NCBI GenBank assembly: GCA_035541755.1
Contig: DATKMQ010000011.1
Span: forward strand, 1-52,011
Origin: Syntrophorhabdaceae bacterium
GTDB lineage: Bacteria > Desulfobacterota > Syntrophorhabdia > Syntrophorhabdales > Syntrophorhabdaceae
Reading direction: 5' to 3'
Length of the DNA: 52,011 nt
Made by a program: the position numbers and the translations under genes. Under the pieces are notes generated by a model. The model made no database searches, was not told the origin of the DNA, and saw only the letters and a list, made by a program, of their open reading frames with translations. Shown here piece by piece: positions 5,748 to 42,567 of the stretch. How positions within the stretch are numbered: position 1 is the stretch's first letter; every line of letters starts with the position of its first letter.

Positions 5748-5801
5748 TTCACACGTTCTTAATAATTTCTTAATACGACCGCAACATCGGCTTGTTACAG
5801 T
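5748..5801 (+). promoter_or_regulatory. Predicted Pho box and promoter of the FKBP-TpsB operon
   Basis: TTCAC at 5748, TTAAT at 5759, TTAAT at 5770 and GCAAC at 5781, perfect 11-bp phasing, then 10 bp, then TACAGT at 5796-5801. The last two units and their spacers closely match the site at 25147 (ACGA.C between units, then GCAACATC). Confidence 0.7.
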
Positions 5802-8574: not shown

Positions 8575-8641
8575 GTTGCCCGGGGATCGCACCACGGGGC
8601 GTAAACCAAGGGCGTCGGCCGGGCGACCATTTAACCGGAAT

Positions 8642-8684
8642 TTCAATCTTTATTAACACAAGTTTAACAGGTTGTCGATATTCT
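8642..8684 (+). promoter_or_regulatory. Predicted Pho box and internal promoter for tpsA
   Basis: TTCAA at 8642, TTAAC at 8653 and TTAAC at 8664, 11 bp apart, then 10 bp, then TATTCT at 8679-8684. It lies between tpsB and tpsA, so the exoprotein can be transcribed in excess of its transporter. Confidence 0.72.
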
Positions 8685-18573: not shown

Positions 18574-20370
18574 ATGCGGCATAGGTGGTTTGGGAGAGTA
18601 GCGGTGTGCGGGCTTATAGCCGGAGCATATTTATTCACGGCCCTGGCCGGGCAGGCAAACGCCTGGTGGGACTCAAAGTGGCAGTACAGAAAGAAAGTAG
18701 TTTTGAACACTACCACTGAAGGTGCCGACATCAGGGAAGCCATCACGGATCTTCCCGTGTTGCTCAGGCTCGACGCGGGCAATTTCACCTTCGGAAACGC
18801 CAAACCCGACGGATCGGACATCAGATTGGTTGCATCTGATGACAAGACGCCCCTTAAGTACCACGTAGAACGCTATAGCGCCAAGGAAGAGATGGCATTG
18901 ATCTGGGTGAAAGCGCCCAGAGTGCCGGCGGCCTCCAATCAGGAGTTCGTCTGGCTTTACTACGGTAACAGCGGGGCGGCAACAGGTGAAGACTCCGGGG
19001 GGACCTACGACACACCGCAACTCGCCGTATATCATCTTGGTGAAAAGGAAGGCGCACCGCATGATGCCACCGCCTATGGCAATCACGCCAAAGAGTTTAC
19101 GGGCAAGCTCGACATCGCGGCCGCCATCGGACGAGGCGTCACCATGGGCGGCCAGGGCGATAAACTCGTTATCGCCAAGTCCCCTTCGATGAACATTTCC
19201 AAAGGCTTTACGTTCTCAGCATGGGTGCGTTCGGCGCGCGCTCAGCAGGACGCGAGACTTCTCTCCTGGGACGACGGTAAACAATCCGTGGTAATCGGTA
19301 TCGATGGCGCAAAGCTGTACTGCGTCTTTACTGACGCAAAAAAGAAGACCGCAACTGAAAAGACAGTCGATATACCCGCTCAGAAATGGGCTCACGTGGG
19401 CGTGAGCGCAGAGCCGGGCAAGAACCTGGCGGTCTACGTAAACGGACAAGAGAAAACGTCACAAAAACTCTCCGGTGGGCTTGTTGAGCCGGTGGCTGAC
19501 ATAGGGATCGGCGCTACGGTACAGGGGAAGAATGGCTTTGCCGGCGATATCGACGAAATTGAAATTGCAGGGATAGCGCGCAGCGCGGCATACATAAGGG
19601 CAGAGGCACTAAGTCAGGGTCCCGAGACGCCCCTTCTCTCGTATCTTGATGAAGAAACCTCGTCAGGGGGCGGATCGCAGAATTTGACTGTACACCTGCT
19701 TGTTGTAACCGCCAAGGCGATCACCCTCGACGGCTGGCTCATCATCGGTGCAATTATCATCATGGTGGGTATCACCTGGATCCTGTTCTTTAACAAGTTC
19801 AGTGGTCTTAAAAGGCTCAATAAAGAGAACGCCGCCTTCGCCGACGCCTTCAGTCAGTCGACGAGCGTTTTAGCTTTGCGGGAGTCAGATACGGAGTATG
19901 AAGGTTCTTCTCTTTTCAGAGTATATAAGGCGGGCATGGCCGAACTGGAGAGACGGTTCGGCCGGACAGACAAGACCGACACAGTCTGTCTTCCTCAACA
20001 GGCCTTCACAGCCTTCAAAGGCGTTTTGGCAAAAGCCTCACTGCAGGAGAGCAAAAGGAACACCTCGGGACTCATCCTCTTCACACTCAGCATTTCGGGG
20101 GGGCCTTTCATGGGGCTCTTCGGCACGGTCTGGGGCGTCATTAACACCTTCGCGGGCGTGGCTGAAGCCGGTGAGGCGAACCTCGCGGCCATTGCGCCGG
20201 GTGTTGCGTCGGCCCTTGCCTGCACGCTTATGGGACTCGTGCTCGCTATCCCGGCCCTTTTTCAGTACAGCTTCCTGTCGCAGGACATAAAGAACATGAG
20301 CGCCGATATGAACGTGTTCATGGAAGAGTTCACCACCAGGGTCGAAGAAGAGTACGGAGGTAAAACGTGA
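18574..20370 (+). CDS. DUF2341 - LamG-like - MotA/TolQ/ExbB fusion protein
   Basis: Three parts in order. After a signal peptide (1-30) there is a DUF2341-type region (about 35-145: WWDSKWQYRKKV at its start, then VWLYYGN). Next is a concanavalin/LamG-like beta sandwich (about 150-345: GFTFSAWVRS, KWAHVGVSAE, GDIDEIEIAG). A membrane helix (386-407) leads into an ExbB/TolQ proton-channel domain with two more helices (about 505-570: GGPFMGLFGTVWGVINTF and the Ala/Gly-rich GVASALACTLMGLVLAIPAL). ExbB with ExbD uses the proton gradient to drive TonB. The start is ATG at 18574 after ACGGAGG. The stop overlaps the exbD start by 4 bp (GTGA), so the two are coupled. Attaching a glycan- or protein-binding periplasmic ectodomain to the channel is unusual for a classic ExbB; such fusions occur beside large exoproteins, which suggests energised handling of the TpsA. 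Confidence 0.88.
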   Translation: MRHRWFGRVAVCGLIAGAYLFTALAGQANAWWDSKWQYRKKVVLNTTTEGADIREAITDLPVLLRLDAGNFTFGNAKPDGSDIRLVASDDKTPLKYHVERYSAKEEMALIWVKAPRVPAASNQEFVWLYYGNSGAATGEDSGGTYDTPQLAVYHLGEKEGAPHDATAYGNHAKEFTGKLDIAAAIGRGVTMGGQGDKLVIAKSPSMNISKGFTFSAWVRSARAQQDARLLSWDDGKQSVVIGIDGAKLYCVFTDAKKKTATEKTVDIPAQKWAHVGVSAEPGKNLAVYVNGQEKTSQKLSGGLVEPVADIGIGATVQGKNGFAGDIDEIEIAGIARSAAYIRAEALSQGPETPLLSYLDEETSSGGGSQNLTVHLLVVTAKAITLDGWLIIGAIIIMVGITWILFFNKFSGLKRLNKENAAFADAFSQSTSVLALRESDTEYEGSSLFRVYKAGMAELERRFGRTDKTDTVCLPQQAFTAFKGVLAKASLQESKRNTSGLILFTLSISGGPFMGLFGTVWGVINTFAGVAEAGEANLAAIAPGVASALACTLMGLVLAIPALFQYSFLSQDIKNMSADMNVFMEEFTTRVEEEYGGKT

Positions 20371-21522: not shown

Positions 21523-21570
21523 AAGACGGCAGTCATCAAGCGGAAAACTGAGAATGGCAAGGGACTGGCC

Positions 21571-21624
21571 TTAACATGATCTTTATATGACGTTAACATG
21601 ATTCCAACACCCGCCTGCTATCGT
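21571..21624 (+). promoter_or_regulatory. Predicted Pho box and promoter of the porin operon
   Basis: TTAAC at 21571, TTTAT at 21582, TTAAC at 21593 and CCAAC at 21604, 11 bp apart, then 10 bp, then TATCGT at 21619-21624. The ATG at 21598 sits inside the box, so it is not the start of the porin gene. Confidence 0.72.
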
Positions 21625-21663: not shown

Positions 21664-23292
21664 ATGATATTCAAGCGAAGAATCAGACATAACTGGGTTG
21701 CACCCATTCTGTTCGGTCTCAGCGTTTTGGTGTTTGTTTCGGGTACCTATGGACAGACGCCCACGGAGGCTAAACAACCCGGTCTAACCGAATCGGGAGC
21801 TACACCATCTGCCGGTATCGAAGAACTAACCAGGATCCTTGTCAAGAACGGGCTCATAACCAAAGAGCAGGCTGAGGCAATTATGCTGCGCAAAGACGAA
21901 GGCAGTCTCTCCGCCCTTGCCGCGCTCACGGAAATTCTTAAGACCAAAGGTCTTATCAGCGCCGATGATGCGGATAGAGTCTCCGGGAAGACCGCCCCCG
22001 GAGTTTCGGCCACGGAACTTGCTGCGTCGCCGGGCATGAAGAAAGAAGAGCGGGATAAGATGAAGGCGGAAATAAAGGATGAGGTGATTCAGGAGACCAA
22101 CGCCAAAATGCAGGTCGCCGCAAATCCGGAGTGGACCAAGCGTATCCGCTTTGGCGGTGACATACGATTGCGATATAACGGGGACTATTTCCCAAAGGAC
22201 AATGACGATATCATCAAACCCGATCTTTCAGGCATTATAAACTCGAAAAACGATCGCCACCGTATGCTCATCCGGGCCCGCCTGGAGGCCACGGCTCAGC
22301 CGGACGACCAGGTCGAAGTGGGGCTGCGTCTGTCCACCGGCAGCACTACAAACCCCGTTTCGACGAATCAAACCATGGGTACGTACTTTAGCCCTTACAG
22401 CGTGGTTTTCGACAGGGCCTATCTCAAATGGAAACCGATCCCATCATTTGCTCTTGTTGGTGGGAGATTTGAGAACCCATTTTTCCATTCCGACCTCGTC
22501 TGGGACCCGACCGTGGCTTTCGATGGCGTAGCGGCCACCTATAGGAAGGAACTTCCAAAGAAACTGCTCACCGGATTCGCCACGGTAGGCGCCTTCCCAC
22601 TCCAGGAATTGGAGTTCCAGCAGGCAGACAAATGGCTTTTCGGAGGCCAAGTGGGCCTGGAAACTGACCCCACAGAGAACGTTTCCGGCAAGCTGGGTGT
22701 TGCCTACTACCATTACCGAAACGTACAGGGCGTTCCCAACGATCCGAGTAGCGCGGCGGGAGAAACCGACTTCTCTTCCCCCCTGTTTCAGCAGAAAGGA
22801 AACACCTGGTTCTATATCGACCCTCTCAATTCAACGAAGATAGGTCTTGCTTCCAAGTTCAAGGAACTCAACATCACCGGTACCCTCGATATCGGCTTCT
22901 GGAATCCGATCCACATTGTTCTGCTCGGGGATTATGTGAAGAATCTTGGCTTTGACCGAGAGGAAGTGGCCTTCCTTACGAGCCAGGATGTGAAAGAGCG
23001 CACCGAGGGATATCAGGCGGGTTTGGCCGTGGGACATCCGGAAGTCAGAGATTTCGGCAAGTGGAAAGTTTTTGGCTACTATCGCTATCTGGGCGATGAT
23101 GCCATTTTGGACGCCTTCGCCGATTCCACCTTTCACCTTGGAGGTACGAACGCCAAGGGATGGATCCTCGGAGGTGATTTCGGTCTTCGCAAGAACATGT
23201 GGGCTTCGCTCAAGTGGGTGACAACGAACGAGATCTGGGGTCAGAGTTTCGGCATCGACTCATTCTTTCTTGATCTGAATTACAAGTTTTAG
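21664..23292 (+). CDS. Putative porin (outer-membrane beta barrel)
   Basis: A 542-residue exported protein. The signal peptide ends near residue 31 (SGTYGQ). The mature N-terminus has two helix-turn repeats (LTRILVKNGLITKEQAEAIM and ILKTKGLISADDADRV), which resemble the periplasmic helical stalk found in many deltaproteobacterial and Bacteroidetes 'putative porin' proteins. From about residue 150 (RIRFGGDIRLRYNGDYF) the sequence alternates in barrel strands up to LDLNYKF, with a terminal Phe. ATG at 21664 has GGAGAG upstream. It is Pho-box controlled, so by analogy with PhoE, OprP and OprO it may be the phosphate-starvation porin of the cell; ion selectivity cannot be read. It begins a probable operon with the coiled-coil and parvulin genes. 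Confidence 0.82.
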   Translation: MIFKRRIRHNWVAPILFGLSVLVFVSGTYGQTPTEAKQPGLTESGATPSAGIEELTRILVKNGLITKEQAEAIMLRKDEGSLSALAALTEILKTKGLISADDADRVSGKTAPGVSATELAASPGMKKEERDKMKAEIKDEVIQETNAKMQVAANPEWTKRIRFGGDIRLRYNGDYFPKDNDDIIKPDLSGIINSKNDRHRMLIRARLEATAQPDDQVEVGLRLSTGSTTNPVSTNQTMGTYFSPYSVVFDRAYLKWKPIPSFALVGGRFENPFFHSDLVWDPTVAFDGVAATYRKELPKKLLTGFATVGAFPLQELEFQQADKWLFGGQVGLETDPTENVSGKLGVAYYHYRNVQGVPNDPSSAAGETDFSSPLFQQKGNTWFYIDPLNSTKIGLASKFKELNITGTLDIGFWNPIHIVLLGDYVKNLGFDREEVAFLTSQDVKERTEGYQAGLAVGHPEVRDFGKWKVFGYYRYLGDDAILDAFADSTFHLGGTNAKGWILGGDFGLRKNMWASLKWVTTNEIWGQSFGIDSFFLDLNYKF

Positions 23293-25082: not shown

Positions 25083-25146
25083 AGAAGATATCTGTGAGCC
25101 GAAAATACGTACTGTCACACAACGATTGACTGCACCATCCGCCAGT

Positions 25147-25200
25147 TTCAAGAAACTTTAATTTGACCTTCATACGAGCGCAACATCCCGCAGATATACT
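25147..25200 (+). promoter_or_regulatory. Predicted Pho box and promoter of the PEP-CTERM gene
   Basis: TTCAA at 25147, TTAAT at 25158, TTCAT at 25169 and GCAAC at 25180, perfectly phased, then 10 bp, then TATACT (25195-25200), a near-consensus -10. The best promoter of the set. Transcripts would start near 25207 and carry a leader of about 310 nt that contains a riboswitch. Confidence 0.78.
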
Positions 25201-25390
25201 GCCCTTAAGTTCATTGAAGACATAAAAGATCCGCCGTAAGAGATTTCGGGAAAGCGCGGAATGATTCCAAGATTCGATGTGCGGATAAGAGCATGTGTGC
25301 ATCGGATCGAGACCGGGGAGGTGATGCAAGAAGAGATCTTAAGAAACAGGATAACGGTTGCGGGACCAGGGGCCCCGCTCAAGACCCCGG

Positions 25391-25476
25391 CCCTCAGAGA
25401 AAAGCCAAAATTCCGGCAACGGGATGACGGAAAGCCACAGGCCCTTGAGAACAAGGGCGGCTGGGTTGCCTGAAGG
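25391..25476 (+). promoter_or_regulatory. c-di-GMP-I (GEMM) class riboswitch; cGAMP subclass possible
   Basis: The parts of the GEMM aptamer are present in order. P1: CCCTCAG (25391-25397) pairs with CTGAAGG (25470-25476), one mismatch. P2: ATTCCG and CGGGAT close a GCAA tetraloop (GNRA type, which docks with P3). Then comes the conserved linker GACGGAAAGCC, P3 with GCCCTTG/CAAGGGC around AGAA, and the conserved GGCTGGGTTGCC. It ends 40 nt before the ATG at 25517, whose ribosome site AGGAGGAG lies between. No intrinsic terminator is seen, so control may act on translation. Whether it binds c-di-GMP or 3',3'-cGAMP depends on the base equivalent to G20 in Vc2, which I cannot place with certainty. 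Confidence 0.8.
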
Positions 25477-25516
25477 AGATAGAGATGCACGAATTATGAA
25501 AAAAGGAGGAGTAACA

Positions 25517-26245
25517 ATGAAGAAATTTCTTTTAGTGTTCACGACTGTCGCGTTTGTTCTTGCTTTTGCGGGACAGAGCCATGCCGCCTTCGGCACCTAT
25601 GACTTGATAAGGGTCGTGTATGATACTTCCACAACGAAGTATGAAGCGGCCACGTCACTCTACAATGCTTCTAGCGACCAGCAGTTTGCCGGCACGAGCA
25701 ACCTGACCGTTGGCGGTGGCAGCGATGCATTCACGGGCTACACGGGCACGGACTGGAGTACCCTGTATGTGGCATATTTTCTCTACGACGGAAGCAACAC
25801 CGATAAACGGGTCTGGGTCAGTGGCACTCAGGCAGAATCGAGCGTAGCACGCAAGTATGCTGGCTACTTCAGCAATGTACAGAGTATTTTAACTACTTAC
25901 ACCAGCGCGGCGAACGGCAATAGCACGGTTTACATCCCACAGAGCTCAGCGAATGGCTATGTGTCCAGGTTCGATGCCAGTCCTGGAACTTTCGGCGGTT
26001 TTCTGAGCACCGGTACCGGGGAGGCCTCCCTGTCTACTATGGCTACCCTGGGATACGTGGACATGAACCTCTATTACTTCGCGAGCGGCGACAACGCCGG
26101 CGCAGGCACCAAGATTGCTACGCTAAGGACCATGGCGGACGGAAGCACGATTATCAATCCTACCGCCACGCCCGTGCCACCGGGTCTGCTGCTACTGGCC
26201 CCGGGTCTACTCGGTCTCATCGGTCTCAAGAGAAGGGTTGCTTAA
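25517..26245 (+). CDS. PEP-CTERM-type exported protein
   Basis: A 242-residue secreted protein: signal peptide 1-22 (ending SHAA), a Ser/Thr/Gly/Tyr-rich beta-type body without recognisable enzyme motifs, and a C-terminal sorting signal with VPPG, a hydrophobic helix and LKRR at the end. This VPxP form of PEP-CTERM is processed by exosortases in deltaproteobacteria and leads to release or anchoring at the surface, often in an extracellular polysaccharide matrix. The start is ATG at 25517 with AAGGAGGAG. No exosortase gene is present in the window, so processing would rely on the host. It stands behind both a Pho promoter and a c-di-GMP-class riboswitch, so it may be a matrix protein made only when phosphate is low and the biofilm signal is right. 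Confidence 0.8.
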   Translation: MKKFLLVFTTVAFVLAFAGQSHAAFGTYDLIRVVYDTSTTKYEAATSLYNASSDQQFAGTSNLTVGGGSDAFTGYTGTDWSTLYVAYFLYDGSNTDKRVWVSGTQAESSVARKYAGYFSNVQSILTTYTSAANGNSTVYIPQSSANGYVSRFDASPGTFGGFLSTGTGEASLSTMATLGYVDMNLYYFASGDNAGAGTKIATLRTMADGSTIINPTATPVPPGLLLLAPGLLGLIGLKRRVA

Positions 26246-26302
26246 GTTCTATGAAATTTACTTGATATGCGAATGACAAGATCATAAAGGAGGATTTGAA
26301 TT

Positions 26303-27634
26303 ATGGTACGGAATAGATTACTCAATACACTAATCGGGGTTTCCCTGATAGCTTTTGGCGCAACAGCCGCCTTTGCTGATGACATTAACATATACGGAGC
26401 ATCGGCCGAGCAGACCTTCTGGACCGCATTGGCCCCTGCCTGGCTCAAAGATACCGGCGATAATGGAGCGGGATGCCCCGCCGCTAACGTATCGACCAGA
26501 ACGAGCGGTTCCAACTTCATCGCCCAGGGTACCGGCTGCTCTCTCGGTAACGGTACCATCACGATACGCGTAACCGCCAAGAACTCCCTTGAGGGTATCA
26601 AGGCTGTAAAAGAAGAGGCCATGCTCGATTCAGATCCATGTACGAGTACCGGTCTTGCTTACCGCACCATGCTTAGCGGAACCGGCGCAAACACCACAGG
26701 CTGCTATGATGTGACCATTGGGGCATCGGACGTGGCAAGCAGCGCCTTTGCCCAGCAGAGCACGGGCAACGTAAACGGGCCTCAGGACGGCGCCAGGGGA
26801 ACTAACGTGAAGACTTTCGTCGCCGCTGCCGAGGACATGACAGGTTACGATCTCTACAGGCCGGTTGTAGTGCCTTTTGGTTTCTTTGTGAACAACAGCG
26901 TAAAGGTGAGAACATGCGTTGCCGGCACACCCAATGCGGGCGTACAGTGCTCCGCAGATGCCGACTGCCTGAACACAGTGCCTCTGGCGGGCGACTGCGG
27001 CACCGTATCGCAGACAATTACCGATGTATCCCGTCAGATGGCAACCATGATTTTTTCCGGACAGGCCTATAACTGGACCGATTTTGGCGCCGGATATGAC
27101 ACCAATCCGATCGAAGCCTGTATACGTCATGCCGGATCTGGAACAGTGGCAACCCTCGACTGGGCAGTGATGAGAGGGAATAACAAATGGGGCTGGAACC
27201 TGGTGACCACAGAACAAGACGGTGGTCCGTACGTATGGTTCAACAACGGCACAGGTACAGAGATGAACTGCGTGAATACCCAGACCGGCGGCATCGGCTT
27301 TGCCGACGCGGATCAGGCCGAGAGCTGCGGTACAGGCAAGACTTATGTCAACACCGCTGCGGTCAAATACAATGGTTTTTATCCGAGAAGAATAACGATC
27401 AGGAACGGCCAGTATGACAACTTCTGGTCAGCGCAGCACCTCTATGTCAAGGCTGTCGACGACACCCCCGTGGTGCAGAAGCTCATGCAATTTGCCAACG
27501 ATCCTACCAAGATAACCGCTATGGGCGGAAACCCTGCGAAATACTGGGCGAGCCAGGCGGAAATGGTTTACTGGAAGGATGATCCGTCCGCATATCCGGG
27601 TTACCGGGGAGCGGATTCGCCACAGACGCCGTAA
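26303..27634 (+). CDS. PstS-like periplasmic substrate-binding protein
   Basis: A 443-residue exported protein with signal peptide 1-25 (ATAAFA). The body follows the phosphate-binding (PstS, PBP-like) plan: opening strand INIYGASAEQTFW, VVPFGFFVNNSV, then ATMIFSGQAYNWTDFG (compare the TGKxxNWxD motif of PstS), RHAGSGTVATLDWAV (compare RxDGSGT) and TGGIGFADAD (compare PGAIGYV). An insert near residues 205-235 holds several cysteines (CVAG, VQCSADADC, GDCG) and is unlike PstS; such Cys-rich repeats occur in exported deltaproteobacterial proteins. AGGAGG precedes the ATG at 26303 and a strong terminator follows. There is no pstCAB transporter nearby, so the protein may bind phosphate or a phosphate ester for the host Pst system, or serve as an extracellular phosphate-binding protein. 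It is probably co-transcribed with the PEP-CTERM gene 57 bp upstream. Confidence 0.75.
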   Translation: MVRNRLLNTLIGVSLIAFGATAAFADDINIYGASAEQTFWTALAPAWLKDTGDNGAGCPAANVSTRTSGSNFIAQGTGCSLGNGTITIRVTAKNSLEGIKAVKEEAMLDSDPCTSTGLAYRTMLSGTGANTTGCYDVTIGASDVASSAFAQQSTGNVNGPQDGARGTNVKTFVAAAEDMTGYDLYRPVVVPFGFFVNNSVKVRTCVAGTPNAGVQCSADADCLNTVPLAGDCGTVSQTITDVSRQMATMIFSGQAYNWTDFGAGYDTNPIEACIRHAGSGTVATLDWAVMRGNNKWGWNLVTTEQDGGPYVWFNNGTGTEMNCVNTQTGGIGFADADQAESCGTGKTYVNTAAVKYNGFYPRRITIRNGQYDNFWSAQHLYVKAVDDTPVVQKLMQFANDPTKITAMGGNPAKYWASQAEMVYWKDDPSAYPGYRGADSPQTP

Positions 27635-27684: not shown

Positions 27685-27738
27685 TTCACCGTAAATTAAC
27701 CGTATCTCAATCGATTTCTAACAATACCATAGTAATCT
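27685..27738 (+). promoter_or_regulatory. Predicted Pho box and promoter of phoB
   Basis: TTCAC at 27685, TTAAC at 27696, TCAAT at 27707 and CTAAC at 27718, 11 bp apart, then 10 bp, then TAATCT at 27733-27738. Implies autoregulation of the response regulator, as known for E. coli phoB. Confidence 0.65.
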
Positions 27739-27866: not shown

Positions 27867-28574
27867 ATGAAGATTCTCGTAGTCGATGACGAAAAGGATA
27901 TTCTCGACCTGGTTTCCGTCAACCTCGAACGCGAGGGCTTCAAAGTGATCACCGCGGATAACGGAGAAGATGCCCTCGATCTGGTAAAAAGCAAGAAGCC
28001 CGATCTCGTAGTGCTCGATCTCATGCTGCCTGGAATCCACGGGCTTGAGGTCTGCAGGCAAATTAGAGGGGCGCCGGAGCATGCGGGTCTTCCTATTCTT
28101 ATACTGAGCGCCAAGGGGACCGAGGTAGACCGCATCGTGGGACTTGAAATGGGCGCCGATGATTACATTACCAAGCCCTTCAGCGTGGGAGAGCTCGTAG
28201 CACGCATCAGGGCCGCCTTAAGAAAGACCGGAGGAAACCAGCAGAAGAAACTCACACAGCAGGGACAGACCTTCTTTCACAAGGATCTCTTTGTTGATTT
28301 CCAGCGATACGAAGTGACGATCGGTGGTAAGAAAACGGACCTGCCCCCCATAGAGACGAAGCTTCTCTTCTTCTTCACAAAGAACCCGGGAAGGGTCTAC
28401 ACGCGCGACCAGCTTCTGGACCATGTCTGGGGTGACAAGGTCTTCGTGACGCCGCGCGTGGTCGATGTTCATATCAGCCACCTGAGAAAGATCATCGAGA
28501 AGGACCCGCAAAAGCCTGCCTACATCGTAACCGTCACAAACGTGGGCTACAAATTCGATGACTCCACTGCTTAA
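27867..28574 (+). CDS. phoB: PhoB-like OmpR-family response regulator
   Basis: A receiver domain (1-120) with the acidic pair Asp7/Asp8, the phosphoacceptor Asp51 (VLDLMLPG), Ser81 and Lys103 (TKPF), followed by an OmpR/PhoB winged-helix DNA-binding domain (about 135-230: ETKLLFFFTKNPGRVYTRDQ, then VDVHISHLRKII and VTNVGYKF). At 235 residues it is the usual size for PhoB. PhoB dimers bind direct repeats spaced 11 bp, the pattern found across this island, so this protein is the obvious candidate activator; the DNA-binding specificity itself is inferred. There is no histidine kinase gene next to it, which is unusual: phoR normally follows phoB. It may be phosphorylated by the host PhoR. Weak ribosome site (GGTGG) before the ATG at 27867. 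Its last codons overlap a possible start of the following broken gene. Confidence 0.85.
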   Translation: MKILVVDDEKDILDLVSVNLEREGFKVITADNGEDALDLVKSKKPDLVVLDLMLPGIHGLEVCRQIRGAPEHAGLPILILSAKGTEVDRIVGLEMGADDYITKPFSVGELVARIRAALRKTGGNQQKKLTQQGQTFFHKDLFVDFQRYEVTIGGKKTDLPPIETKLLFFFTKNPGRVYTRDQLLDHVWGDKVFVTPRVVDVHISHLRKIIEKDPQKPAYIVTVTNVGYKFDDSTA

Positions 28575-32975: not shown

Positions 32976-33560
32976 TTAGCCGTGCCTTTTGACGCGATGA
33001 ATCACGCGAAATCCCGAGGCAAGAGTCAAACCAGATGCAAAAAGCAGCGTTGCTGAAGGCAGTGGGACCGGAGAAGGATTTCCGGGGTCGGTGTCCCGTT
33101 CGGCGACGAAACCACGAATCTTCCGCGGGTCTGACTCGCCATACCACATCCAGTTGTCCTTGCCGTATTTTGACCCGATCGCCAGGTACCGATCGGTGAC
33201 GCGAATTCTAGAATCGTCCGGCTGACCTTTTGCCCAGCGGGCGAAGCTCCAGCCTTCCGAGGTCACCCAGTGCCATTTCTTGGACGGATCCTCATACCCA
33301 CCGAGCCAGAACTCGCCCGAGAGTCCCTGAAGATCTTTTTGCAGAGTTTGCTGTTCGGTGGGGCTTGTTACGGTGGCCAGATGATAAGCGCTTCCCCAGG
33401 ATGAAACCTCTTCGGCCGCCTGTTGCCATGTGATGCCCGGCCGGAACACAACGATATACTCCTGATCGTTGCCGTAACAGGCGTGGCAGATGGCGCTGAG
33501 GCCCAGGATCAGGAAAACCGTGAGCATGGTGATGAATCCGGTCTTCGCATGGACTTTCAT
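32976..33560 (-). CDS. C-type-lectin-domain PEP-CTERM protein
   Basis: A 194-residue exported protein with a signal peptide (1-27), a C-type lectin fold (about 40-155: GITWQQAAEEVSSWGSAYHL, TVTSPTEQQTL, FWLGGYEDPS, WHWVTSEGWSFARWAKGQPD, and RGFVAE at the end), and a C-terminal PEP-CTERM-like sorting signal (VPLPSATLLF, hydrophobic helix, then HRVKRHG). CTLD-PEP-CTERM proteins are thought to bind surface glycans after exosortase processing. The start overlaps the stop of the upstream RHH gene as ATGA, and its ribosome site AGGAGG lies within that gene, so the two are translationally coupled. The transcript is headed by a Pho box. The canonical disulfide cysteines of CTLDs are mostly absent. 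Confidence 0.82.
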   Translation of the reverse strand: MKVHAKTGFITMLTVFLILGLSAICHACYGNDQEYIVVFRPGITWQQAAEEVSSWGSAYHLATVTSPTEQQTLQKDLQGLSGEFWLGGYEDPSKKWHWVTSEGWSFARWAKGQPDDSRIRVTDRYLAIGSKYGKDNWMWYGESDPRKIRGFVAERDTDPGNPSPVPLPSATLLFASGLTLASGFRVIHRVKRHG

Positions 33561-34070: not shown

Positions 34071-34124
34071 AATGTACCACCGCGGTATTAAGAAACGATT
34101 ACAAACCAGTTACAAAAGTATGAA
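34071..34124 (-). promoter_or_regulatory. Predicted Pho box and promoter of the RHH-lectin operon
   Basis: Minus strand: TTCAT (34120-34124), GTAAC (34109-34113), GTAAT (34098-34102), TTAAT (34087-34091), 11 bp apart, then 10 bp, then TACATT (34071-34076). Confidence 0.7.
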
Positions 34125-34603
34125 ATCTGCGTTGCATTTGTGTGAAACCCTCGAACGAAAGGGAAGTCTTACCGGCCTTTATCTAACCTGTTGGATTTTG
34201 CACTTACGTGCGTAAGCTAAACCTACACCTGAAAAACCCAGCCTCCTTCATAGGCGAAAGAGATGTGTCGGTTTATTTCCAGAACAGAACGTTACAGGAC
34301 ATCTCAGGAGTGTAGAGTTAAGAAGAATGCGAGCTGCCCCATCTCTGCTATGGACAAAGAGCCGAAACAGCGGGCGAGAAACGGCATGTCGAGGTAAGGG
34401 CTTACAACGTGCCTCACCAGGAGAAGGGGACTTGGATCATCAAGATGGCCGGCGTGAGAAGCACAATTAAAGAGACGCGTTTTACTCACGAGGAGGGTAG
34501 CCTGGGATTGCTTCTACCGGGGGGCCCGTCACATGGCAGCGCCAAGCACGGGAAAGAGTTCTAGGGACCTTAAACGTGGGCCAGGCGGGATGCCGGCGTC
34601 CAC
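34125..34603. other. Non-coding stretch between the RHH operon and pfkA
   Basis: No open frame here has a ribosome site or a recognisable product. It separates two minus-strand transcription units. I see no terminator with a clear U-run and no repeat shared with other parts of the window. Confidence 0.5.
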
Positions 34604-36543: not shown

Positions 36544-38151
36544 TCACTGCTCTGAAGACGGGCGAAAGACTTGCTCCAATGTTGTCCGGGTTTCATCGGA
36601 CGAGAACTCTTCCCAGATTGCGGCAAAGGCATCCTGTTTGTTCCGGGCGATCTGCGCTTGTAGCTCGTGGATCTGCCCAAGCGTGAAAAGCATGTCGGGG
36701 TCTACGAGCTTGGTTTTCGAATCATTGTGCAGCCACCTCACAAACTTCCTGGTGAAGACCGTGTCCTGGAGCTCCCCAAGACAGTCCTGTATGTCCACTG
36801 TCCGATCGATAAAGGCATCGAGACCTCCGTCGTAGGCCGGCGCTACAAACTCGCAGGCATACCGCAGTCTTTTCATCTGAATGCGCAGACCGTGAAACTC
36901 TTTCAATTTTGGATTCTGTATGACCGCGTGTCCCTGTTTGACGACCGCTGCGAGCTTCTCGTGGATGATCTTCGGTGCCGCGCAAGCTACGGTCATTGCG
37001 GCGAAGGACCCACGCGGACGCTTAGGCAGGGGTCGTTCAAGGAACTGTTTCATGCGCTGTTCGATGCGCCTTGCTCTGACAGATTCAAGTGCATCGCAGA
37101 GCGCTTTCAGTGGTTTGCGCCGATGCTTTTCAATCCAATCGTCAAAGCCCTTCTTCTGTTTCTTTGGAAAGGGCTTAATCTCAGTTCTAAACTTCGGGAG
37201 GTTAAGAAGGAAGACATCGAGGTCGCGCACGGCGCCGAACATTCCTCCCAACCATTTCAGTTCTTCCTCGAGATAGACCGTTGTGATTTCCGGGAGCGCT
37301 TCATGAAACAACTTGAGGGCTGATCGCATGCGTCTCGTGGCCACTCTGCCTTGGTGTACAAACTCGGTATCGATGTCGCGAAGCACCCCGGGGATCTGCT
37401 CGGTGAACCACTGAAATTGAAAAGAGAGGATCTTACGCACGGCCAGATCCAGACGGTCGTCAAGGCGCACCTTAAGCGACTCCGGAACTTTCTTCGAGGG
37501 GATAACAATCTTTAAGCGCTTGATGGCGACTTCAAGTTTCGACTCAGCCGACGGCGCGTACTCAAACTTCTCTTTGAGAAGATCCCGCAGGCCGGTGATC
37601 TCCTTTACCGGACCGCTCAAGAGTTCCGCTTCCATCTCCATGAGCCGGCGCGCCGTGCGTTGCTCGTGAAGTCCGCGGGCTGAGAACCCGGTGGCGTCGA
37701 AGGCGAGCTCGATCTTTGCCCCCCTGGGTGAGACGGCATGGTAGAGGTGCCGGTCCGTGCGCACCTGGACGTGCTCTATAAGCTTACGGGGATAGATCAG
37801 TTCTTTCACCTGATTCTTAAGGCTCTTTATGGGAATTATCGTCAAATCGCTCACCGGTTGATCGAGCACAATCTCTGTCTCGGCCCTGGTTGCGACCCCG
37901 TCCTCCATACCACCCACGCTTTTCAATGTGTACATGGCCTTGTCGTTTGCTTGGCGGTGCCTTAAAGCAAGATGGTTCTTCATGAGCGTCCAATCAAAGG
38001 TGTCGAGATATGTGTCCACATTTTTGACCGGGCCCATGTCTTCTAATTTGTAACCTCGCTGACGCAAGAATTTCAGGATCGTCGGTATGGCGTTCTCGTC
38101 GGGGAGAAGTAATTTGAGTTCTACCTCAGTGGATCTCGTTCTATTGCCCAT
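36544..38151 (-). CDS. CYTH-CHAD domain protein
   Basis: The N-terminal CYTH domain (about 7-200) starts with EVELKLLLP (the ExExK signature) and shows the run of alternating charged strands of triphosphate tunnel enzymes (LALRHRQA, MYTLKSVGG, RAETEIVLD). The C-terminal CHAD domain (about 235-520) is a helical bundle with conserved His and basic residues (VHQGRVATRRMRSALKLF, FHGLRIQMKRLRYACEF), a fold known to bind polyphosphate. Such fusions are found with polyphosphate kinases and may target to polyP granules or hydrolyse triphosphates. 535 residues. It is the last gene of a minus-strand run: PPK2, PPK1, HD protein, CYTH-CHAD. The 190-bp gap to the HD gene may hold a separate promoter. Confidence 0.93.
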   Translation of the reverse strand: MGNRTRSTEVELKLLLPDENAIPTILKFLRQRGYKLEDMGPVKNVDTYLDTFDWTLMKNHLALRHRQANDKAMYTLKSVGGMEDGVATRAETEIVLDQPVSDLTIIPIKSLKNQVKELIYPRKLIEHVQVRTDRHLYHAVSPRGAKIELAFDATGFSARGLHEQRTARRLMEMEAELLSGPVKEITGLRDLLKEKFEYAPSAESKLEVAIKRLKIVIPSKKVPESLKVRLDDRLDLAVRKILSFQFQWFTEQIPGVLRDIDTEFVHQGRVATRRMRSALKLFHEALPEITTVYLEEELKWLGGMFGAVRDLDVFLLNLPKFRTEIKPFPKKQKKGFDDWIEKHRRKPLKALCDALESVRARRIEQRMKQFLERPLPKRPRGSFAAMTVACAAPKIIHEKLAAVVKQGHAVIQNPKLKEFHGLRIQMKRLRYACEFVAPAYDGGLDAFIDRTVDIQDCLGELQDTVFTRKFVRWLHNDSKTKLVDPDMLFTLGQIHELQAQIARNKQDAFAAIWEEFSSDETRTTLEQVFRPSSEQ

Positions 38152-38341
38152 GAGAGAAACCTCCCTTTGGCTCCTTCTTGTGAACCGTCGCGCACCCCCT
38201 TAAACAGGGTTTATCTGGATAAGGGCATAAGCCGACGGCATAGCCGGCGTCGGTATTCCCGGTCGTTCCATTTCTCGAGGTGTTTGTCACGCGCCGACTC
38301 CGATGCGGGGGGGTTGCTTCGCACGTGGGAAAAGAATACCA

Positions 38342-38938
38342 TCAGCATTGGTATGTAATGTCCCTCCCTGTCTTTTTGACGAGCAGTTCCTGTTTCCGGG
38401 TAGCCCGCTCAATCTCCTTGGCACAGCGGTTTTTGGTCTTGAGCCTTACCGTGATCTTTCCGTCTTTGATCTCGCACCGGAGATTTTGAACGGCACCATT
38501 ATGATTGCAATCGAGGCCATCGGCCACGCGCAGCATGCCGGCGAGCCATTCCACCACGTCGCGTGCGGTGGGGGCAAGCGAAGCGAACCTCTGGTGCTTT
38601 GACGCATCCGGCAAAGCCTTTGTGTGGTAGCGCGCAATAAGGGCACAGAGAAAGCGTTCATCCTTGTGAAGACCGGGTATGGCCAGATCTAGGATCATAT
38701 CACGGGTGAATTTGTGATGTTTTCCGGAAACCGCCTTGGACCAACCTATATCGTGGAGCCTTCCTGAGATGCTAAGAAGCCGCTTCTCCTTTTCCGTGTA
38801 CCCGTGGAGAGTCTTTAGCTCGTCAAAGAGAGCCAGGGCAAGCAGTGTAACCTGTGCGCTGTGCGCAGGGTCAGGATCGTAGATTTCCGCGGTGCTTGCA
38901 GCAAACTCAACGGCTTTGTCCATGTCTGATTTCTTCAT
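38342..38938 (-). CDS. HD-domain phosphohydrolase resembling the C-terminal part of Ppx/GppA
   Basis: A 198-residue stand-alone HD domain. The metal ligands are visible as His26 (HSAQV), His62-Asp63 (LHDIGW), His75 region (HHKF) and Asp/His further on (RYHTKA, RVADGLD). The pattern RLHDIGW, SGKHHKFTRDMI and LAGMLRVADGLD follows the second half of exopolyphosphatase (Ppx/GppA domains III). It lacks the sugar-kinase-like catalytic half of Ppx, so it is either a separate partner of a Ppx encoded elsewhere or an independent phosphohydrolase. It lies 15 bp downstream of ppk1 and is surely co-transcribed. A role in polyphosphate turnover or signalling is inferred from context. Confidence 0.85.
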   Translation of the reverse strand: MKKSDMDKAVEFAASTAEIYDPDPAHSAQVTLLALALFDELKTLHGYTEKEKRLLSISGRLHDIGWSKAVSGKHHKFTRDMILDLAIPGLHKDERFLCALIARYHTKALPDASKHQRFASLAPTARDVVEWLAGMLRVADGLDCNHNGAVQNLRCEIKDGKITVRLKTKNRCAKEIERATRKQELLVKKTGRDITYQC

Positions 38939-38953
38939 CCCTCCGGGTCTCCT

Positions 38954-41317
38954 TTATCCTTGATGTTTTTTTGCTTTCTTTTTGCCGATCTCTTTCACCA
39001 GCTCTTCATAGGGGGCTGATTTGATGCCCCCCTCGCGGGCAATGGCGATGAGCTGGCTCTGGCTTCTTACAGGTTTGGTCCCGGGTTTCGCCTTGGCTCT
39101 GACGTACGTGCCGTCCGGTTGCATGATGCGCGCCTTGACATTGTCGTTGAGGTATGTGGCAAAAATTTCGTCCATGATCCGCGTCTTCAGTCGGACATCC
39201 TCTATGGGATAAAGGATTTCCGCTCGTCGCTTGAAGTTCCTCGGCATCCAGTCGGCGCTTCCCGAGTAGATTTCGGCATTTCCTCCGTTGTCGAAGTAGT
39301 AAATCCTTGAGTGTTCAAGGAAGCGATCGAGGATACTTATGACCCGGATGTTGTCGCTCACCCCCGGTATACCGGGACGAAGACAGCAGATGCCACGTAC
39401 CAGAAGATCGACACGTACGCCTGCACGGGAAGCCTCGTAAAGTTTACCGACCATTCTGGTATCGACAAGAGCATTCATCTTTGCGATGATACGCCCCGGT
39501 GAGTTTGATGTTGTCTTCTGGATTTCGCGATCAATGAGACGCAAGAGGGTCTGCTGTGTGGTCACGGGGGAGATCATGAATTTGTGAAACATGGACGCCA
39601 CCGTCTCCGGGGTAAATGTATTGCCGCCGCTCCATGAATTGAACCCGGTCAGAACGTTGAAGAGTGAGGAAACATCATTCCCGAAGGAGGGATCGCACGT
39701 AAACAGTCCCAAGTCCGTATATATCCTGGATGTGACGGTGTTGTAGTTGCCGGTGGAAACGTGAACGTAGCGCCTGAGTTGTTTGCCTTCCCGGCGTACC
39801 ACGAGCGTGGCCTTGCAATGGATCTTCCAGCGGACGAATCCGAACACGCTGTTCACACCGGACTGCGACATCTGTCGCACCCAGTCAATATTGGAGCCCT
39901 CGTCGAAGCGAGCCTTGAGCTCCACAGCGGCCGTCACCTGTTTGCCGTTTTCCGCTGCGCGACGCAGGGCGGCGACCACCGGAGAATCCTTGCCTATCCG
40001 GTAGAGGGTTTGTTTGATGGCGAGCACGTTTGGATCATCGGCTGACGCATTGAGAAAATCCATGAACACGGCAAACGAGTCGTAGGGATGGTGAAGGAGA
40101 ACGTCTCCATCCCTGATGACGGTAAAAATATCGCTCTCGCCTGCTAAACGGCGCGGGATGCGAGGATTAAAGGGCGGATCCCTGTGTGTCCCGTTTACAG
40201 GCAGATCATAGAGAGACAGAAAGTCACGAATGTTGATGGGGCCGTTAATCTCGTAGACGAAACGGTCTTCCACCTCCACCTGTTTGGCTAAAAGACGCAC
40301 GATCTTCTTAGGCGCACCAGACTCCACCTCGAGGCGCACGGCGAGTTTGTCGGAGCGGTCTTTGATCTCGGCCTCTACGGATTTTAAAAGATCCGTCACA
40401 TCCTCTTCATGCAAATCATAATCCTGATTCCTCGTCACCCGCAAGGCGATGACCGTTCGCACCTCCATGCCCGGAAAGAGCATATGAATGTGTCTTTTGA
40501 TGAGGTCTTCGAGTAAGACAAAGTGATATCCCCTGGTGTCCTGGTCGATCCCGATCAGCCTTGCCAAGACCGATGGCACCTCAACGAATGCGTAGGCCTG
40601 AGGAATCTTCGAATCACCGGTCTCCTTGAAGATGACCATGAGATTCAGTCGCAGGTTCGTCAGAAACGGAAAGGGGTGCCCTGCATCCACGGCGAGCGGC
40701 GTCAAAATGGGAAACACCTGCTCCTCAAAATACTTGTCAAGACGCTTCCTCTGTCTTTTGTCGAGCTCGTCGATATTGTGGATGAATATGTCCACTTTTT
40801 GTAGCCCGGGCAGCACATCGTCCATGAAGCTTGCGTACTGGTCAGCAAGAAGTCCCCGCACTTTTTCCGCCACCTCATCAAGTTGTCTTCGGATGGTCAT
40901 GCCGCTTGAGTCGGAGTCGTTTACACCGGCTTCAAGCTCGCGGAAGAGTCCGCCCACGCGAACCATGAAGTACTCGTCAAGGTTCGAATGAAAAATACTG
41001 GAGAACTTGAGTTTCTCCAGAGAGGGCGTGAGAGGGTCCTGGGCTTCTTCCAGAACACGTTTGTTGAACTCGAGCCATGAAAGCTCGCGATTAACATACA
41101 GGGAAGGGTCGTTGAGGTTGACAGGAGGCGGCTCTACTGCTGGTTTAGGCGATGGTTTACTCTCGGGTACGACCTTTGCGGGCGATGCCGCATCCGCCGG
41201 TTCAAGTCCGATTACTTCTGCAGGAGATACCTTGTTCCGCTTAGAAGCGGTCTGTCGATTCCGCTCTTTCTTTTTAGTCCGTTTCTTTTTCGATGAAGCC
41301 GATGATTTTGCTGACAT
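38954..41317 (-). CDS. ppk1: Polyphosphate kinase 1
   Basis: Reversibly polymerises the gamma phosphate of ATP into inorganic polyphosphate. All PPK1 regions are present: N-domain opening NRELSWLEFNKRVLEEA (76-92) and FHSNLDEYFMVR; the H-domain; and two PLD-like catalytic domains with the phosphohistidine in KIHCK (His500, matching E. coli His435), RYVHVSTGNYN, and a second His in FLEHSR (His669, matching His592). At 787 residues it is about 100 longer than E. coli PPK because of an N-terminal extension (1-68) that is first Lys/Arg-rich (SSKKKRTKKKERNR) and then Pro/Ala-rich; the C-terminus is also Lys-rich (KKKAKKHQG). Start ATG 41317 with GAGGAGAA. It sits between PPK2 and the HD gene. Confidence 0.97.
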   Translation of the reverse strand: MSAKSSASSKKKRTKKKERNRQTASKRNKVSPAEVIGLEPADAASPAKVVPESKPSPKPAVEPPPVNLNDPSLYVNRELSWLEFNKRVLEEAQDPLTPSLEKLKFSSIFHSNLDEYFMVRVGGLFRELEAGVNDSDSSGMTIRRQLDEVAEKVRGLLADQYASFMDDVLPGLQKVDIFIHNIDELDKRQRKRLDKYFEEQVFPILTPLAVDAGHPFPFLTNLRLNLMVIFKETGDSKIPQAYAFVEVPSVLARLIGIDQDTRGYHFVLLEDLIKRHIHMLFPGMEVRTVIALRVTRNQDYDLHEEDVTDLLKSVEAEIKDRSDKLAVRLEVESGAPKKIVRLLAKQVEVEDRFVYEINGPINIRDFLSLYDLPVNGTHRDPPFNPRIPRRLAGESDIFTVIRDGDVLLHHPYDSFAVFMDFLNASADDPNVLAIKQTLYRIGKDSPVVAALRRAAENGKQVTAAVELKARFDEGSNIDWVRQMSQSGVNSVFGFVRWKIHCKATLVVRREGKQLRRYVHVSTGNYNTVTSRIYTDLGLFTCDPSFGNDVSSLFNVLTGFNSWSGGNTFTPETVASMFHKFMISPVTTQQTLLRLIDREIQKTTSNSPGRIIAKMNALVDTRMVGKLYEASRAGVRVDLLVRGICCLRPGIPGVSDNIRVISILDRFLEHSRIYYFDNGGNAEIYSGSADWMPRNFKRRAEILYPIEDVRLKTRIMDEIFATYLNDNVKARIMQPDGTYVRAKAKPGTKPVRSQSQLIAIAREGGIKSAPYEELVKEIGKKKAKKHQG

Positions 41318-41565
41318 TACAACGTTCTCCTCAAACTGACGTCAATTATTTTTTAGGCTCAAGCGAGCGTATCGTCTTCAAGCATGGACTTCGGATGATT
41401 TGGCCGGAGGGGTTCCATCAACACCTCGCAGCAACTTAAGGCGCTGCCGGCCCTTCCTGATTATTTGCGCACCCTTTGAGAGATTGTAGAGTGTAGAGAT
41501 CTTCTGAATCCGGATTAGGTCGGTATTGCCTTTATTGGCCACGTGCGGTTTTGTCTGGCTCCTCC

Positions 41566-42567
41566 TCAACTGCCCTCGTGCTCAGTCGTCTGCTTTGCTT
41601 TGCTCGCCCCCTTATTTTCTGTGGTCTTGCTCTCCTTTTTTTTCATCTTGAGTTTGAGATCCTGTTTCTTTTCCGTTTTTAGCTGTTTGTTCTTTTTGTC
41701 CTTCTTTTTTTGTTTCTTATTTTTTGTTTCCGTGTTGGCGGCCATGGCCGCGCTGTGGTATTTTCTGCGTATGTCATCGATATCGACGCTGGGCTTGGGT
41801 GTCTTGAGATGCATCGACTCCAGGGTCTCCATGACGATCCGCGAAATCGCGAGGTTGCGGAACCATTTCCGGTTAGCGGGAATGATGTACCAGGGCGCAT
41901 ACTCTGTGCTTGTCCTGCTCAAAGCGTCTTCGTATGCCTTCATGTACTTGTTCCAGAGTTCTCGTTCGGCGTAATCAGACTCACTGATTTTCCAGCGACG
42001 CGCAGGGTCGTTGAGGCGCTGCTCAAACCTCCGAAGTTGTTCTTCGGGGCTGATGTACAGAAAGAATTTCACAATCTTGGTGCCGCTATCGGCGAGATCC
42101 TTTTCGAATTCGTTGATCACATCGTACCGTTTCGACCACACGTCTTTGGATACAAGGTTGTGAACGCGCGTGACAAGAACATCCTCATAGTGGGACCGGT
42201 TGAAAATGACGACCTCTCCTTTTGCCGGCACCCGCTTGTGTACGCGCCAGAGGAAGTCGTGCTCAGCCTCTTCTTTTGAGGGGGGTTTGAAGCTGTACAC
42301 GTGAGTACCCTGGGGGTTAAGCGCCGAAAATACCTTATTTATAGTGCCGTCCTTGCCGCCTGCGTCAAGGGCTTGCAAGCAGATTAGTAGGGATCGGTTG
42401 TTCTCGGCATACAGGAGGTATTGAAGATCACAGAGTCTGATCTGATGTCTGGCCATCTCTGTCTCGGCCGAGATTTTGTTTTTGTGATTTGCGGTGAACC
42501 CTGGGTCAACCTTGTCCAGTCTTACCTTCGCGCCTGGTTTGATCTTGAAGAGTTTATGGTAATCCAT
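41566..42567 (-). CDS. ppk2: Polyphosphate kinase 2 family protein (polyP:nucleotide phosphotransferase)
   Basis: PPK2 enzymes transfer phosphate between polyphosphate and nucleoside mono- or diphosphates. The Walker A region reads LQALDAGGKDGT (64-75), the lid region NPQGTHVYSFKPPSKEE follows, and Walker B is IFNRSHYEDVLV (121-132). The overall pattern matches the polyP:nucleotide phosphotransferase group that can use polyP to regenerate ATP/ADP (class III-like, tentative). The catalytic domain ends near residue 275; a tail of about 55 residues is extremely Lys-rich (KNKKQKKKDKKNKQ onward), unlike the usual ~300-residue length. ATG start at 42567 with GGAGG-like AGGTTTTGG upstream. It heads the polyP operon and has a two-unit Pho-like site upstream. 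The 248-bp gap to ppk1 has no convincing gene. Confidence 0.92.
   Translation of the reverse strand: MDYHKLFKIKPGAKVRLDKVDPGFTANHKNKISAETEMARHQIRLCDLQYLLYAENNRSLLICLQALDAGGKDGTINKVFSALNPQGTHVYSFKPPSKEEAEHDFLWRVHKRVPAKGEVVIFNRSHYEDVLVTRVHNLVSKDVWSKRYDVINEFEKDLADSGTKIVKFFLYISPEEQLRRFEQRLNDPARRWKISESDYAERELWNKYMKAYEDALSRTSTEYAPWYIIPANRKWFRNLAISRIVMETLESMHLKTPKPSVDIDDIRRKYHSAAMAANTETKNKKQKKKDKKNKQLKTEKKQDLKLKMKKKESKTTENKGASKAKQTTEHEGS

Follow-up and report, generated by a model that had tools for sequence, protein, structure and literature searches.

Pho-type promoter repeats and a c-di-GMP-I riboswitch aptamer on the leader of a PEP-CTERM and PstS-like gene pair in a Syntrophorhabdaceae bacterium

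A 52,011-nucleotide stretch of a Syntrophorhabdaceae genome (hereafter the window) carries, ahead of a gene for an exosortase-type surface protein, a leader in which PhoB-type direct repeats are followed by a c-di-GMP-I (GEMM-I) aptamer, and a gene for a PstS-fold protein lies directly downstream. Computation here supports the presence of the aptamer, of the Pho-type repeats and of the gene pair, as well as the conservation of each. It is likely, in our judgement, that the locus is a two-input unit, in which phosphate starvation would govern transcription and c-di-GMP would set translation, the surface protein being made together with its PstS-fold partner. Such a unit joins on one mRNA the signals of phosphate starvation and of the surface-lifestyle messenger c-di-GMP, which have mostly been studied separately, and it provides a testable model for the choice of environmental bacteria to display exosortase-sorted and phosphate-binding-like proteins.

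A Pho-type promoter precedes the leader

The Pho-box-like element (25156 to 25184, +) has three half-sites of 7 bp each at 11-bp spacing, CTTTAAT, CCTTCAT and GCGCAAC, and a -10 hexamer, TATACT (25195 to 25200, +), is placed 10 nt past the last of these; the full site, 25156 to 25200, reads CTTTAAT-TTGA-CCTTCAT-ACGA-GCGCAAC-N10-TATACT. The 10-nt gap is presumably spacing of the E. coli phoA kind. Scoring employed a matrix trained only on regions upstream of pstS genes from 28 other genomes of the phylum; promoters of other genomes were chosen to avoid circularity, and because the promoter of this genome's own main pst operon was lost at a contig end. Two pst loci are present in the genome (C55 and C170), the one on C170 accompanied by ORFs for a sensor kinase and an OmpR-family regulator. 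The 25156 site scored 19.9 bits, compared with a mean best score of 11.4 bits and a top score of 16.1 bits for 30 shuffled windows scanned with the same matrix, none of which held a site at 18 bits. This result, with the 11-bp repeats and the TATACT hexamer, upholds the Pho promoter proposed by the sequence-only reading, but does not clearly uphold the proposal that it was the strongest of the window: six separate sites of at least 18 bits were found (5757, 23.3; 27694, 22.9; 25156, 19.9; 34115 on the minus strand, 19.9; 21569, 19.5; 8640, 18.4 bits), and the 25156 site was third by matrix and second by a hand consensus that included the -10 hexamer (22.0 vs 22.2). No sigma-70 consensus promoter was found within 25083-26302, and the idea that the leader is read from a plain sigma-70 promoter was dismissed.

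The six strong sites, together with the ppk1, ppk2, CHAD and Ppx genes, lead us to regard the window as a phosphate-starvation (Pho) cluster. The polyphosphate genes (CHAD/CYTH, Ppx/GppA-like, ppk1 and ppk2) are grouped at 36544-42567 (-), 9-15 kb downstream. The 23.3-bit site (5757 to 5801, +) lies upstream of the 5902-8574 genes for two-partner secretion (TpsB, with FhaC/ShlB domains), and that of 18.4 bits (8640 to 8684, +) falls at the start of an ORF of 3273 aa (8672), by its position after TpsB an exoprotein. Overlapping sites of 19.5 and 16.9 bits (21569 to 21624, +) stand before a Porin_5 gene, and because of them this gene probably starts near 21664 and not at 21598. A second PEP-CTERM-like ORF (32976-33560, -), with the C-terminus PLPSATLLFASGLTLASGFRVIHRVKRHG, has sites of 19.9 and 18.9 bits on the minus strand (34071 to 34126) roughly 0.5 kb upstream of it. 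No plasmid copies of the region were found.

Direct-repeat sites of like spacing are common to OmpR-family proteins, and the 25156 repeats might instead be bound by another member of the family with a non-phosphate signal, for example the regulator encoded locally at 27867 to 28574 (+), itself preceded by the 22.9-bit Pho-box-like site (27694 to 27738, +). This regulator is PhoB-like, yet its score with the best NCBIfam model, TIGR02154 PhoB, is under the equivalog cut-off (244 vs 296 bits). The matrix that picked out the repeats was, on the other hand, trained on pstS promoters only, and the cluster contains phosphate genes (PstS-like, ppk1, ppk2 and Ppx); we therefore hold the exchange of one OmpR-family regulator for another to be unlikely, and a PhoB-type regulator is the one that we place on the repeats below.

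The leader contains a c-di-GMP-I aptamer

Transcription from this promoter would give a 5' leader of about 310 nt (25207 to 25516, +), its start placed by the position of the -10 hexamer. A search with the Rfam covariance model RF01051 matched 25394-25473 (+) over the full model (1-87) with 67.4 bits against a gathering threshold of 35 (E 3.9e-11), and alignment with the orthologs (A3) supports the same c-di-GMP-I aptamer. The GEMM aptamer that had been drawn from the letters alone, with P1, a GNRA-capped P2 and the core sequences, is thereby confirmed: P1 is UCAG/CUGA, P2 is capped by the GNRA-type tetraloop GCAA, the core GACGGAAAGCC is intact, GGCTGGGTTGCC is present, and P1b includes a compensatory pair. 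From the aptamer end to the ATG at 25517 we measured 43 nt, in good agreement with the 40 nt first estimated, and a strong ribosome-binding site, AAAAAGGAGGAG, occupies 25500 to 25511 (+).

In an alignment to Vc2 and to the orthologs, the pocket columns of the window aptamer read G, A and C, which we take to be G20, A47 and C92 in Vc2 numbering. As this pocket is of the c-di-GMP type and the genome encodes GGDEF proteins (8 matches), the predicted ligand is c-di-GMP rather than cGAMP. The sequence-only reading had named the c-di-GMP/cGAMP class; the c-di-GMP part stands, whereas cGAMP is rejected on the pocket base, G instead of A at position 20. The cGAMP (GEMM-Ib) riboswitches of the related Geobacter share the aptamer fold and a place upstream of extracellular or surface genes, and differ in having A at position 20 where the window has the G of the c-di-GMP type (PMC6456294, PMC8835794); a single A20G change converts a Geobacter cGAMP riboswitch to a c-di-GMP riboswitch (PMC6456294).

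Five c-di-GMP-I aptamers are encoded in the genome, three before PEP-CTERM-type genes and two before genes of other secreted proteins. Upstream of the four outside this locus the pstS-trained matrix detected no Pho site (p 0.5-0.7), and within the genome the double input is therefore specific to the window locus. Two of the four (L004 on C145 and L005 on C72) directly follow TTGACT-type promoters ahead of PEP-CTERM genes, with no Pho site, and are the same riboswitch class with a single input.

Another leader element, GGGGAGGTGATGC (25315 to 25327, +), is a long match to the 3' end of 16S rRNA with no suitable start codon downstream. Matches of the A(A/G)GGAGGTGAT type, far upstream of the start codon, are kept in most orthologous leaders of L061-L077, mostly without an ORF; in L137 a tiny ORF (MKIKA) follows. 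The GGGGAGGTGATGC match is possibly an mRNA stabiliser or a ribosome stand-by site.

The gene pair codes for a surface protein with a PstS-fold partner

The first gene (25517 to 26245, +) encodes an exosortase-type (VPLPA/PEP-CTERM) surface protein of 242 aa, with a signal peptide-like N-terminus and the C-terminal tail PVPPGLLLLAPGLLGLIGLKRRVA, in which P-x-P, a hydrophobic helix and a basic end are seen. No curated sorting-signal model scored above its cut-off for this protein (VPDSG-CTERM only, E 0.56); the VPLPA-CTERM model TIGR03370 was matched by 14 of 16 aligned orthologs (best 5.8e-9), and the genome encodes an exosortase (TIGR02602, 169 bits, cut-off 105.6).

The second gene (26303 to 27634, +) encodes a periplasmic protein of 443 aa that scored 49.4 bits with TIGR02136, under the cut-off of 206.6, and that has the PstS fold: the AlphaFold model (pLDDT 88) gave PstS structures 4exl and 4lat as best Foldseek matches (probability 1.0). 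The anion-site motifs GASxx, GASD and RxxGSGT are present; RxxGSGT and GASD are invariant or nearly so, and R275, G278-T281 and D143 invariant, in 18 orthologs. No transporter genes were found beside this gene, and we treat its product as PstS-like, not as PstS.

A gap of 57 nt with no visible terminator separates the two genes, and the pair is conserved in the related loci; these observations favour the earlier suggestion that control might also reach the PstS-like gene, which is probably on the same mRNA as the surface-protein gene.

The arrangement recurs in related genomes

The gene pair was sought in 84,980 species genomes, and 18 loci were returned from Syntrophaceae, Geobacteraceae, Desulfuromonadales, Desulfobulbaceae and other deltaproteobacterial genomes, most relatives being metagenome-assembled; in all 18 the PstS-like gene comes immediately after a PEP-CTERM-type gene. 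One locus was cut by a contig end, leaving 17 readable leaders (two of them copies in one genome) plus that of the window. Taking the best site in 1000 nt of each leader, leader by leader across the 18 and with no correction for multiple testing, the pstS-trained matrix found Pho-like boxes at p<0.05 in 14 and at p<0.01 in 11; scores were weak at L064, L071, L076 and L077.

Aptamers of the c-di-GMP-I class were recognised in half of the leaders (9/18). Those of the window, L061, L064, L067, L068, L076, L077 and L078 exceeded the Rfam cut-off, and that of L066, with a long P3 insertion, scored 41 bits (E 1e-8), under the cut-off of its family. The best model was RF03168 (UAU) for L067 and L077 and RF03167 (GGC) for L061 and L066, the pocket bases still being G-A-C. 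Two aptamers (L064 4961-5039 and L076 3220-3298; GGGUUGUC and GGGCUGUC, respectively) have U at the C92-equivalent position, and this G-A-U pocket may alter ligand preference. Degenerate aptamers at L070 and L072, where a AAAAAGCCAAA core is visible by eye, gave no Rfam score and were excluded from the count.

The Syntrophaceae locus L061 (G045) shows the order of the window at similar spacing: a Pho box, then an aptamer some 300 nt further on, then the gene pair. Recurrence in related genomes makes a chance pairing of the two elements less likely, and from these comparisons the double control looks real and selected; the Pho promoter and c-di-GMP-I aptamer that had been read on one leader of the window are thus a conserved arrangement. 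The nine leaders with no recognisable aptamer (L062, L063, L065, L069-L073 and L075) indicate, being half of the orthologs, that the aptamer is not indispensable. It might accordingly be a relic in this genome, still folding with its control of translation gone, and folding reveals no clear expression platform for it. Decay would be expected to strike the pocket bases and the P1b pair, and the window copy, at 67.4 bits, retains all of the former and the compensatory pair in the latter; we consider a relic quite improbable, and continue with a working aptamer.

Proposed operation of the unit

On the two-input reading, phosphate starvation would bring a PhoB-type regulator to the 11-bp repeats (25156-25184) and transcription would start near 25207, after which the leader would fold the aptamer (25394-25473). 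The stretch 25083-26302, which includes the interval between aptamer and gene, showed no terminator on the same strand, and for this reason the aptamer is expected to act on translation of the gene 43 nt downstream. With PhoB binding, ligand binding, control at translation and co-transcription of the second gene all inferred, both products of the pair would be made together, and the surface or biofilm state of a starving cell would determine how it deploys them.

The AND gate of phosphate starvation and c-di-GMP put forward by the sequence-only reading is plausible, and we lean weakly towards c-di-GMP raising expression. In thermodynamic folding, forcing the aptamer opened the Shine-Dalgarno (SD) sequence in L077 and L066, closed it in the window and changed little elsewhere; because these signs contradict one another among orthologs, AND and AND-NOT gates are both possible. 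A gate of the second kind (starvation AND NOT c-di-GMP), in which c-di-GMP lowers expression and starved cells that are dispersing make the proteins, is a serious contender that we rate somewhat below an even chance. The window itself folds in this sense, with an SD openness of 0.16 when the aptamer is forced vs 0.84 when P1 is blocked, but the effect stems from a weak, GU-rich pairing with coding sequence, and has the opposite sign in L077 and L066. Pseudomonas fluorescens also speaks for it, since c-di-GMP is depleted there at low phosphate and an AND gate would need opposing conditions (PMC3032545). If starvation lowers c-di-GMP in the present organism as it does in P. fluorescens (PMC3032545), expression from the AND gate that we lean to would be limited to starved, still-attached cells.

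A conserved hairpin, R1, in orthologous leaders

Upstream of the aptamer position, 15 orthologous leaders contain a conserved hairpin, R1, of the form GGGUnCYUUGCUG-(hairpin)-CAGAAAGCCC. In many loci its 3' strand, AAAGCCC, doubles as the 5' strand of an intrinsic terminator, and the R1 fold and the terminator fold are mutually exclusive because this strand is common to both. Covariation was seen as 46 double-change cells among 35 distinct sequences, compared with 15.7 +/- 3.2 in shuffles and at most 15 in slid controls, from an alignment fitted to the tested structure, which biases the counts its way; the first alignment, made without such fitting, pointed in the same direction. The structure so supported is the RNAalifold fold with an open internal loop. 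A version with extra CUUU/AAAG pairs was not supported, 53% of its cells being paired, no better than shuffles (the tested structure was also out of register).

A search of Rfam with the L077 copy gave no report at E<=1, and R1 had no match in the window or elsewhere in its genome. Only 3 genomes among 119 relatives have R1, and genomes carrying the gene-pair unit have up to 10 copies. Outside the unit R1 is found ahead of PEP-CTERM genes and of purple acid phosphatases, and in 7 of 8 such loci tested a Pho-like site (p<=0.035) lies within 600 nt upstream. Copies were located at L061 642-687, L064 4749-4793, L066 4658-4706, L067 2578-2619 and 2676-2716, and L077 4796-4841, 4887-4923 and 9619-9668, as well as in L137 and L146-L166.

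R1 is, from these alignments, a candidate for a new attenuator or riboswitch, and may respond to some ligand characteristic of phosphate starvation; if it does bind a ligand, the phosphate response would gain a new class of riboswitch. Rather tentatively, and at a little less than even chances, the window can be placed as a simplified member of a three-layer leader (Pho promoter, R1 as putative antiterminating riboswitch or attenuator, c-di-GMP-I aptamer) serving Pho-regulated surface genes of Desulfobacterota and Desulfuromonadia; on this reading the window genome, which has no R1, has kept the other two layers.

A small conserved ORF ending in FTGYIKVNFSQGGIGRVEKFEEILK is found just upstream of R1 in most orthologous loci (L048 2938-3123 (-), L062 upstream of 4910, L070, L073, L075 and L137 1548-1766 (-)). 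It had no Pfam match at 0.01, and its assignment to DUF2292 received no confirmation there.

Relation to known systems

Our search of the open-access literature found no report that combines a Pho promoter with a c-di-GMP riboswitch in the same transcript, as the sequence-only reading had supposed; the combination appears to be undescribed, and its separate parts are known. There are two close precedents. In Vibrio cholerae gbpA, a nutrient-signal activator (CRP, upstream of Vc1) and a c-di-GMP-I riboswitch likewise serve one adhesin mRNA, but the signal is carbon (cAMP-CRP) and not phosphate, the gene is another, and the effect of c-di-GMP on transcription was riboswitch-independent in that study (PMC4545359). 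In Methylophaga nitratireducenticrescens GP59, c-di-GMP riboswitches lie directly upstream of VPLPA/PEP-CTERM genes, as in the window, whereas the part of that report used here has no Pho promoter or PstS-like partner (PMC12530212).

Phosphate and c-di-GMP have been connected by other routes. In the Pho/RapA/LapA system of P. fluorescens, too, phosphate starvation is coupled to a surface protein under c-di-GMP control, but the coupling is made by a protein effector together with a phosphodiesterase that responds to phosphate, instead of by two elements on one mRNA (PMC3032545). The PhoB regulon of the related bacterium Desulfovibrio vulgaris resembles the present case in its 4-bp-spacer repeats, the measured box being a (c/t)GT(n)AC repeat, and in targets that include HD/EAL phosphodiesterase genes, a link between phosphate and c-di-GMP; it differs in that PEP-CTERM genes are assigned to the regulator DVUA0057, not to PhoB (PMC3333781).

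Two further gene arrangements were seen. In the window, 18574-20370 encodes a fusion of an ExbB/TolQ-type protein with DUF2341 and laminin-G-like lectin domains, and is followed by ExbD, TonB_2 and then the Porin_5 gene with its Pho-like site; the set may be an outer-membrane system of the TonB type that Pho controls. At another locus (L111, G140:C1 ~2812200-2812500), a genuine pstS that has a Pho-like site and the gene of a divergent HD-GYP response regulator flank a c-di-GMP-I aptamer encoded on the opposite strand; this is another junction of phosphate and c-di-GMP control.
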